Source of the DNA: Natrialbaceae archaeon AArc-T1-2
Lineage (GTDB): Archaea; Halobacteriota; Halobacteria; Halobacteriales; Natrialbaceae
DNA length: 64,000 bases
Direction: 5' to 3'
Assembly: GCF_030273315.1 (NCBI RefSeq)
Contig: NZ_CP127174.1
Span: 2,728,001 to 2,792,000 of the forward strand
The position numbers were made by a program, and so were the translations under genes. Positions within the stretch are counted from its first letter, which is position 1; each line of letters opens with the position of its first letter. The notes beneath the pieces were generated by a model, which saw only the letters and a list, made by a program, of their open reading frames with translations, was not told where the DNA came from and made no database searches. Of this stretch, positions 47,022 to 49,996 are shown in pieces.

Positions 47022-47135
47022 GAAGTTCGTCCTCGTCACGAGACACGCTGTCGATGTTCTGCTCGGACTTGGGCAGGACGGGTCGTGCTCGTCGGCAGCC
47101 ACGATCGCGCTGGTGTCCGTCGGTGAACCCCGGAC

Positions 47136-47816
47136 GGCTCTGGTGAATCGCTACACTACGTGGGATTGTAGTGTCTTGCAGTCTTCCTGAGATCGGCCAA
47201 TCGGTTCGTCACCGGCGGATTCCTCGAGCTTACGGTCACGATCATTCCAGACGGACGCCTCGAGCGACATGATCTCCCACATTGACATCCTCCTCCGCGT
47301 AAACGCGGAGGAATCCCGAGCGGTGGGAGTTTCAGGTTCGCAACCATGACTCCGTCACTTTACGGGAATCCGTTTAACCCAGCCATCGTGCCGGTGGCTG
47401 ACTGGCCATGCCAAATGGCCGTTACTCCTATCCTCGGCGTCGTCGGCGTTCGTGGTTGTTTTTGCCCGGCGAACGCCGAGCCAGCGTCAGAAGACTCGGA
47501 GGTATCATGGGCTTGCTGAAACAGGAGGCACGTGACCGCACTCTTCTGGAATGCGGCGTTCACCGCCTGTCTTTCGGATATTGTCTCGTTACGTGGGCGG
47601 ACAGGCCGCCTCCGACGGTCGTTCGGAATCCGCTCCGTTCCGACCTGACCTTACCGATGTATAGGGATTCCTGTGAGTTGAACGTTAGGGTTGGAAACTC
47701 GGCTATGCTCTTGATGGTGGAACGTGGCACTGAGTGACGGCGCGTATCCACGGCCTGAAGGCCGTGGTATTGCGCCTGTTCAGCGTATAAATCGCCGCCG
47801 CCTAGTGATTCATCAG
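47136..47816 (+). mobile_element. ~180-bp inverted-repeat (MITE-like) element, copy 1, interrupted
   Basis: The left end GGCTCTGGTGAATCGCTA (47136-47153) and the right end tagtgattcatcag (47803-47816) are inverted copies. The interior (gtagtgtcttgcagtctt; cctcgagcttacggtcacga; cctcgagcgacatgatctc) aligns with copy 2 at 48751-49865. Without the inserted 47281-47780 block, copy 1 is ~181 bp. No transposase is encoded. Same orientation as copy 2. Confidence 0.65.
47281..47780. mobile_element. IS200/IS605-group-like remnant with subterminal hairpins
   Basis: Near each end is a perfect 8-bp stem with a 4-nt loop: cctccgcg-taaa-cgcggagg (47292-47311) and ccacggcc-tgaa-ggccgtgg (47748-47767). Such subterminal hairpins, and these particular sequences as I recall them, border haloarchaeal IS200/IS605 elements, which leave no target duplication. 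The ~430 bp between has only short unconvincing frames, so it is a transposase-less derivative. Exact ends are approximate. It sits inside MITE-like copy 1. Confidence 0.55.
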
Positions 47817-47818
47817 TT

Positions 47819-48226
47819 CTATCCGTTGATGTTTTCTTCCTCCCGAAGTAAAATATCGCGGACTATCTGATTGTGCGTTATTACTCCGTGAAACTCTTGA
47901 TGCTTCCCGACTACTGGCAAATAATCAGTATCTTCATCTTGCATCATTTCAATAACATTTATAATTTTTATATTTTTGATAGGAACGGTAGTAGTAACAA
48001 CACCAGGCGATTCTAATATATCCTCCTTGTCTAAGAATTCCCACATAGAGTATTTATCACTTTCTAAATCATCAACTCTATCAGTAATCTGATTTATCGT
48101 TCCGTTACGGAAGGCAGTACTGATTTCAAGCAAACCCGCAAATTCTTCACCTCTTGTGAATAAGATATATTGAATAGTTTCGTTTCTATCTTCTGTTAAT
48201 GCCTTCAGGTATGTTTTTATTTGCAT
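47819..48226 (-). CDS. CBS-domain protein (3' half of a possibly frameshifted gene)
   Basis: 135 residues from ATG 48226 (MQIKTYLKALTEDRNETIQY). Two CBS-like units: ETIQYILFTRGEEFAGLLEI near 15-35, and IINVIEMMQDEDTDYLPVVG then KHQEFHGVITHNQIVRDILL near 88-125. The frame is open upstream of the ATG as ISEQIQDQETTILSIDINED and reaches an A6 run just before the stop of the upstream 2-TM gene. It reads as the cytosolic continuation of that protein after a -1 shift. Very AT-rich compared with all surrounding genes, so probably acquired. CBS pairs bind adenosyl nucleotides. Confidence 0.7.
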   Translation of the reverse strand: MQIKTYLKALTEDRNETIQYILFTRGEEFAGLLEISTAFRNGTINQITDRVDDLESDKYSMWEFLDKEDILESPGVVTTTVPIKNIKIINVIEMMQDEDTDYLPVVGKHQEFHGVITHNQIVRDILLREEENING

Positions 48227-48291
48227 TGGTTTATGATCTTCATTAATGTCAATTGAAAGTATAGTTGTTTCCTGATCTTGTATTTGCTCAC

Positions 48292-48624
48292 TTATTTTTT
48301 GATATTTCTCTCCATATCATCAAATCTCAAGATATCTTCTTCGGCTGCCATTTCTCCCTTTAGTATCAACTCTTCTGATTCACTACTTCCAAGAATATCA
48401 AAAAGCAATTTATATCCTTTAGGAGTTTGAATTTCCGTGAGCACAATAATCTCTGAAATTAGTAGGGTAATAAGTACTGGGACGAGACCAATAATCACTA
48501 CTTCTGGACCAGGATCAAGTCCAGCGATTACAGTCAAGTAAACAAGAATGAGAAAAATAATTGAAAGTACAATTATTACACCAATCCTCTTCACAGTTTT
48601 TGATGAGTTCTCATTCTGTGTCAT
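48292..48624 (-). CDS. two-TM membrane protein (5' half of a possibly frameshifted gene)
   Basis: 110 residues from ATG 48624 (MTQNENSSKTVKRIGVIIVL). Two TM helices (about 14-36 and 42-64) are followed by a charged cytoplasmic segment (TPKGYKLLFDILGSSESEEL ... ILRFDDMERNIKK). The stop TAA directly follows an A6 run; a -1 slip there continues as ISEQIQDQETT into the CBS frame, giving a ~268-residue membrane sensor-like protein. AT-rich, foreign-looking. Intact fusion, programmed frameshift, or a decayed gene are all possible. Confidence 0.7.
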   Translation of the reverse strand: MTQNENSSKTVKRIGVIIVLSIIFLILVYLTVIAGLDPGPEVVIIGLVPVLITLLISEIIVLTEIQTPKGYKLLFDILGSSESEELILKGEMAAEEDILRFDDMERNIKK

Positions 48625-48844
48625 CTAATCGACTCCTCATAACATTACCATTTCAGACATCTGCTTAAAGCCCATCCCAGATGGGTGTGAAACAAATATG
48701 GTTGTTAATTTCATTCATCAAAACACGAGTGAGAAAACAGCCAAATAGACGGCTCTGATGAATCGCTAAACACGTCGGGTTATAGTGTCTCACTGTCTTT
48801 GCGAGCCCGTCAAATCGATTAGCCAACGCCAGATACCTCGAGAT

Positions 48845-49772
48845 TGCTCTGTTGAAGAGCGATCTAATCAGCTGATATCACGGGTTAGAAGGATGAAGTC
48901 GAGGAAATCGAGGTTGGTATGGAAATCGATATCCTCGACTTCGTTGAGCAGTGTCGAGACCTAGCCAAACAAGCGTTGGGGAAGCACGCGGGCGAGCCCG
49001 CCAGCGGCGGGTTCGCCCGCTGGGTACATGTCGTTTTGCACTGTTTTCGGCTCGAAGAGGGCCATAGCTACCGTGAAACGCCGAACCGGCTGAAGTACAT
49101 GTCTGAGGTTCGTGACGTACTTGGCCTCGATCAGGACGAGTTGCCGGATTACAGCACGATCTACAAGTCGTTCGATCGGCTGAAAATGTGGGTGTGGCGG
49201 GCGTTGCTGCGCGTTTCAGCGCAGCAACACCCGCAGTCTGGACACGTCGCTCTCGACAGTACGTTCTTCGACCGACACGCTGCATCATCGTATTACCGTC
49301 AGCGATCCGGGAATAGCGTGCAGACGCTGAAAGTGACCACATTAACCGATGTAGAGTCTCTTGCAGTTCTTGACGTTCATATCTCAGCCCGGTGGAAACA
49401 CGATACGAAGACAGGGCCGCAGGTCGTCCGCCGGAACGCGGACGACCTGCTTTCCGTCGCTGCTGACAAAGCCTTCCACAACTGGCACACCAAATACGAG
49501 TTCTACGCCCTCGGTGTCGAACCACTGATCTTACAGCGTGGATCGAAACCACTCACGACAGGGAACAACACGCTTATCCGGACAAAAGGCTACGCTCAGC
49601 GCTGGATGGCCGAAACGTCGTACTCGACAACGAAGCGCTCGCTCGGCGATGCCGTGCGAGCGCTGGGCTGGTATCGACAGTTCCGTGAAATTGTCCTCAT
49701 GTTCGCCATCATCAACATAGAAAAGCTCTGTGAGCCACTCTAACCATCGTTCAGCAGCTATTCAACAAAGCA
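48845..49772 (+). mobile_element. complete IS5-family insertion sequence with 8-bp target duplication
   Basis: 928 bp. Terminal inverted repeats TGCTCTGTTGAAGAGC (48845-48860) and, at the right end read inwards, TGCTTTGTTGAATAGC (49772-49757), 14 of 16 matching. Flanked by perfect direct repeats ctcgagat (48837-48844 and 49773-49780). The uninterrupted target is preserved in MITE-like copy 1. One transposase gene fills it. The intact ends and duplication indicate a relatively recent insertion. Confidence 0.92.
48919..49743 (+). CDS. IS5-family transposase
   Basis: 274 residues, apparently intact. An N-terminal helical region (VEQCRDLAKQALGKHAGE; ARWVHVVLHCFRLEEGHSYR) is followed by a DDE domain: SGHVALDSTFFDRH (first Asp), LLSVAADKAFHNWH (second Asp) and RWMAETSYSTTKRSLGD (Glu in the Y-x-R/K-E-like region). 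Closest to the haloarchaeal IS5/ISH1-like group, which makes 8-bp duplications as seen here. Codon use is less GC-rich than the chromosomal genes. Confidence 0.92.
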   Translation: MEIDILDFVEQCRDLAKQALGKHAGEPASGGFARWVHVVLHCFRLEEGHSYRETPNRLKYMSEVRDVLGLDQDELPDYSTIYKSFDRLKMWVWRALLRVSAQQHPQSGHVALDSTFFDRHAASSYYRQRSGNSVQTLKVTTLTDVESLAVLDVHISARWKHDTKTGPQVVRRNADDLLSVAADKAFHNWHTKYEFYALGVEPLILQRGSKPLTTGNNTLIRTKGYAQRWMAETSYSTTKRSLGDAVRALGWYRQFREIVLMFAIINIEKLCEPL

Positions 49773-49921
49773 CTCGAGATTACAGTCACAATTGTTCCAG
49801 AGTAACGTCTCGAGCGGCGTGATATCTCATCGATAGTCGACGCTGTCTAGCGATTCACCAGAGCCATCACTTATAAGAGTTGTACTGCCGTCTGCCAAAT
49901 GTTGCCCGTCATGCAGAATGA

Positions 49922-49996
49922 TGGGCGCTGCAGGATTTGAACCCGCGGCAGCTTGGTCCGAAGCCAAGTACTCTGTCCAGACTGAGCTAAGCGCCC
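49922..49996 (-). tRNA. tRNA-Arg (anticodon TCG)
   Basis: Minus strand 49996 to 49922: acceptor GGGCGCT/AGCGCCC plus A, D stem GCTC/GAGT, anticodon stem CTTGG/CCAAG around CTTCGGA (anticodon TCG), T stem GCGGG/CCTGC around TTCAAAT. No intron, no encoded CCA. Its 3' end points at the IS-rich region, a typical integration-site arrangement, but no duplicate of its 3' end was found in the window. Confidence 0.93.

Follow-up and report, generated by a model that had tools for sequence, protein, structure and literature searches.

The stretch of DNA analysed here (the window, 64,000 nucleotides from Natrialbaceae archaeon AArc-T1-2) contains two open reading frames on the minus strand which we find to be one gene with a change of frame. 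Read across the shift, the gene encodes a 2-TM anchor, a helical linker and a divergent CBS pair. The hydrophobic helices of the first frame lie at residues ~8-40 and ~38-68 (19-residue windows), so that the two-helix anchor of the original prediction is borne out by hydropathy. The first frame ends in ...ERNIKK (ATC AAA AAA TAA), with the stop codon immediately 3' of the A6 run. In the -1 frame the sequence reads ISEQIQDQETTILSIDINEDHKP without a stop for 23 codons and then reaches a methionine at 48226, all of which was present where the original prediction had placed it. The CBS frame is open from 48316 to 47819 and is closed upstream by a TGA just before 48316. A sequence scan found no ATG, GTG or TTG in this frame between the TGA and 48226, in agreement with the claim that the extension has no start codon of its own. 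The fused protein, expected to have about 268 residues, counts exactly 268. The interval first cited for it, 48220-48624, covers the first frame and the junction, but the full feature reaches 47819. The features of the locus are listed in Table 1. Reading the sequence before the second ATG (48226), we found no Shine-Dalgarno-like sequence there.

Table 1. Coordinates of the interrupted gene, its surroundings and the homologous cluster.
Feature	Position	Strand	Basis
Whole gene, 268 codons across the frame shift	47819..48624	minus	Frame reading and collinear uninterrupted homolog L047:1405-2343
ORF 1, 110 aa, two-helix membrane frame and start of charged linker	48624..48292	minus	ORF translation, hydropathy
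A6 run immediately 5' of TAA, site of the change to the -1 coding phase	48300-48295	minus	Sequence and phase scan
23-codon extension in the CBS frame, ISEQIQDQETTILSIDINEDHKP, containing predicted strand 1 of CBS domain 1	48227..48295	minus	Composition model, homolog alignment, structure model
CBS ORF, 135 aa counted from the first ATG, comprising CBS domain 2 in full and the greater part of CBS domain 1	47819..48226	minus	Translation and PF00571 match
GAGGAG, Shine-Dalgarno-like, 8 nt 5' of the first-frame ATG	48633..48638	minus	Read from sequence
TTTAAG, possible TATA-like box, ~40 nt 5' of the start codon	48664..48669	minus	Read from sequence; candidate
AT-rich segment (34.6% GC; window 64% GC), the 2TM-CBS gene its sole content	47826-48747		Composition
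Inverted repeats, 25 nt, 88% complementary	48748-48772 and 49844-49868		Sequence
IS5-type transposase element between the inverted repeats	48845-49772		Sequence comparison
Another copy of the left inverted-repeat end, 24 nt, 92%	47133-47161		Sequence
Weak right counterpart of that end	47803-47816		Sequence
IS200/IS605-like hairpin pair, remnant enclosed by the 47133-47825 ends	~47290-47320 and ~47739-47776		Identified by eye
tRNA-Arg (tcg)	49922-49996		Sequence
Two overlapping MgtE-domain genes, PhoU/TrkA_C gene and intact 2-TM CBS homolog, on one strand	L048:4142-7734	one strand	Haloarchaeal cluster

The open extension alone is weak evidence for coding, because 24 codons remain open in 14% of first-order Markov simulations of the AT-rich segment. 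Codon phase is the stronger evidence. We trained a position-specific composition model on the two flanking ORFs only, leaving the extension out. Within the extension it favoured the CBS frame by a factor of 10^3.8 relative to the runner-up, a margin attained in 0.125% of trials with base-shuffled extensions. At the three codon positions the extension has G+C fractions of 0.52, 0.22 and 0.13, similar to those of both flanking frames (0.49, 0.27, 0.27 and 0.47, 0.27, 0.32). In a sliding scan, given by the starts of the scanning windows, frame 0 was preferred to ~48345 and the CBS frame from ~48318. This change of preference places the phase switch at the A6 run (~48310-48300).

Further evidence for a single gene comes from an intact relative. 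When the read-through protein was searched against 146 genomes from another haloarchaeal family, one match was found, which covers residues 18-260 with an E-value of 2.6e-6 for that genome. The E-value is per genome, and as ~1,990 genome searches were made overall, many of them repeating the same genomes, its search-wide significance alone is modest. The match is nevertheless firm because of independent checks. The homolog (L047:1405-2343, in haloarchaeal genome G814) is a single uninterrupted ORF of 312 aa, collinear with the read-through protein at 28-29% identity, and has two N-terminal TM helices and a C-terminal PF00571 domain above the cut-off. The read-through protein aligns to it with a score of 137, which none of 1000 shuffles reached (34.7 +/- 5.2); the same was true of 1000 local shuffles (42.8 +/- 8.7).

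The extension itself takes part in this alignment. It pairs with the homolog without a gap (ISEQIQDQETTILSIDINEDHKP / LGDRIRDARPSVLSFTIGERYSS, 6 identities), and the alignment continues into IKTY/IKEY. Adding the extension to the CBS half raises its BLASTP result from 31.2 bits (4e-6), obtained from the ATG onward, to 42.7 bits (8e-10). With only the extension shuffled, the mean score was 75.8 against 105 for the real sequence, a value that none of 2000 shuffles attained. For the CBS 1 part, 78 of 1000 shuffles were as good without the extension and 0 of 1000 with it. Taken together, the gapless alignment, the BLASTP gain and the shuffle tests mean that the extension is genuine coding sequence of the protein, and the ATG at 48226 is therefore an internal methionine. 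The first frame alone matches the homolog weakly (23.5 bits, E 0.001, with 34 of 1000 local shuffles scoring equally well); it is collinear and has the same two-helix plan. The original prediction had proposed that fused single-ORF homologs would support one gene, and one such homolog, aligning both halves and the extension, has been found. With the phase switch at the A6 run and this uninterrupted relative, the view that both frames belong to one gene is upheld. An uninterrupted homolog spanning the lesion is also one of the features expected of a frameshifted pseudogene.

The CBS pair that had been proposed is supported to a different degree in its two domains. Only the second is matched by the PF00571 profile, at 20.5 bits in the window copy against a curated cut-off of 24; in the intact homolog the matched CBS domain is again the second, which passes at 29.3 bits. 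The first domain is predicted from the alignment and the expected order of its strands in the model. A single-sequence model of domain 1, with a mean pLDDT of only 52, gives the order E17-23, H31-42, E48-55, E58-64, H65-70, and in this low-confidence model residues 17-23, the first strand of the CBS fold, fall upstream of the second ATG. A Foldseek search returned no significant match, with CBS chains ranking first (best E 0.033). The profile of SpxR (NF038279), which like CbpB (NF041630) is a CBS-domain protein, spans both CBS domains of the window gene, and its match begins inside the extension. The window gene differs from SpxR and CbpB in scoring 25 bits against 600, far under the family cut-offs, in being without a HotDog or DRTGG part, and in being membrane-anchored.

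Only one full-length homolog was found in our searches. Relatives of either half were found neither in the own genome beyond the gene itself, nor among 199 related genomes, in GTDB contigs (peptide-pattern search), or in IMG/VR, plasmids or phages, and PADLOC and PHROGs gave nothing useful for the gene. Several weak matches were rejected. One, in the own genome, is on the strand opposite a 740-aa ORF that looks like an archaeal ATPase subunit I, another is a ParB-like protein (L005), a third is a winged-helix protein (L040), and the further ones, apart from the own gene, are CBS-only. A separate, ambiguous match in genome G210 (L006) has 38% identity over ~60 residues, covers TM residues only and belongs to an ORF for a different small membrane protein.

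What changed the frame is a question of probabilities, and an ordinary cause is the most likely. We consider it highly probable that this is one 2TM-CBS gene, acquired horizontally and carrying one frame lesion, which would be a recent mutation or a base-calling error. The gene would encode a membrane-anchored CBS-domain sensor, and in this assembly the lesion would lie at or near the A6 run; the alignment leaves a range of ~22 nt for its position. It is the only lesion in 268 codons, so the damage should be very recent or a sequencing artefact, and for the same reason the gene may have been hit only lately or may still serve the cell. If the lesion is real, the main product would be a membrane stub of 110 residues, and the CBS pair would be lost or produced at trace level only, which may amount to loss of function. 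Between the two readings of the original prediction, frameshift expression and single-base decay, decay (or a base-calling error) is favoured, and frameshift expression is without positive evidence.

A base-calling or assembly error at the A6 run, with the gene intact in the cell, is one half of this explanation and is set apart here because it predicts a normal protein. We regard it as a tentative possibility. The sole lesion in 268 codons falls at a homopolymer, and in the GeneTack survey about two thirds of orphan frameshifted singletons were attributed to sequencing errors or indels (67%, the other 33% to gene overlaps; PMC3711429), but six A's make a short run for an error of this kind on most sequencing platforms.

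Programmed or tolerated -1 slippage by the ribosome or RNA polymerase, which would give some 268-residue protein beside the 110-residue stub, is unlikely in our view. The P-site tRNA-Lys might slip on AAA AAA before the TAA, or RNA polymerase on the A6 run. The A run adjoins the stop codon, re-pairing from AAA to AAA in the P site would be perfect, and all the downstream sequence is open. There is also an archaeal precedent in fucA1 of Sulfolobus solfataricus, where a -1 shift at A-AAA-AAT gives ~10% full-length product in vitro (PMC8211752). Since fucA1 also has intact full-length relatives (PMC8211752), an intact relative alone does not exclude recoding. Against slippage, AUC AAA AAA UAA gives C-AAA-AAA rather than the canonical X-XXY-YYZ heptamer, and a fold of 141 nt (pseudoknots left out) pointed to no stimulatory RNA structure (z +0.68, with 149 of 200 shuffles folding equally or better). 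The shift is not conserved in the sole full-length homolog, which is a single open frame, and six A's are below the runs of >7 given for transcriptional slippage (PMC3711429). The window gene shares with fucA1 a -1 arrangement at an A-rich stretch and intact relatives. It differs in that fucA1 has A-AAA-AAT, rare codons, a stem-loop and a demonstrated product (PMC8211752), whereas the heptamer of the window gene is non-canonical, its RNA fold pointed to no structure, and the gene is known from sequence alone. It is improbable that lysyl-tRNA or RNA polymerase slips on the six A's before the stop so as to yield two forms of a membrane sensor, the 110-residue stub and the full one of 268 residues. 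If the full-length protein were made despite the shift, this would be a second archaeal cellular gene of the fucA1 kind, but nothing here requires it.

Two genuine genes, for a 2-TM protein and a soluble CBS protein starting at 48226, overlapping or coupled, are very improbable: both frames have a start and about a third of orphan cases are expected to be gene overlaps (PMC3711429), but a start at 48226 would omit 23 residues alignable to the homolog as well as the strand predicted to open CBS domain 1, the coding phase of the extension also speaks against it, and gene overlap is argued against by the fusion of the two parts in the homolog.

An origin of the interrupted gene by horizontal transfer is probable from its surroundings, which fit acquisition in a spot rich in mobile elements. 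The gene is flanked on both sides by repeat structures resembling mobile elements, with the tRNA-Arg gene close by. The IS5-type element has five further identical copies in the genome and is 87% like ISNph4. The region 48748-49868 resembles a small MITE-like element with an IS nested inside it. We also observe that the TIR-like end of the 47133-47825 structure overlaps the stop codon of the CBS frame. In a congener (genome G001), DNA similarity runs from a prenyltransferase-like gene through the same tRNA-Arg and ends directly after it, and the tRNA therefore marks a variable spot. Five window proteins from the far side of the tRNA, including the transposase, were searched for in that stretch of the congener, and none was found.

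The intact homolog has the same order of parts as the window gene, namely two N-terminal TM helices, a linker, a divergent CBS 1 and a clear CBS 2. It differs in being one open frame, in its longer linker, in being GC-rich and in its MgtE and PhoU/TrkA_C neighbours. The window copy, by comparison, is the only gene of its AT-rich segment and has no MgtE or PhoU/TrkA_C neighbours in the window. Beside the homolog, two overlapping MgtE-domain genes are followed by a gene with PhoU and TrkA_C domains, and the homolog comes 98 bp downstream of the latter. CBS, PhoU and TrkA_C parts are known from MgtE and Trk systems, where they regulate the flow of cations according to nucleotide or ion signals. 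From this one neighbourhood we infer that the members of the family may regulate cation transport as CBS proteins anchored in the membrane. Through its CBS pair the intact protein would sense a putative adenine-nucleotide or similar ligand, and its target would be a membrane partner, plausibly a transporter of cations.

We suggest a single annotation for the two ORFs, as one interrupted gene. Together with its intact relative, this gene brings to light a small family of 2-TM CBS proteins in haloarchaea that does not yet bear a name.
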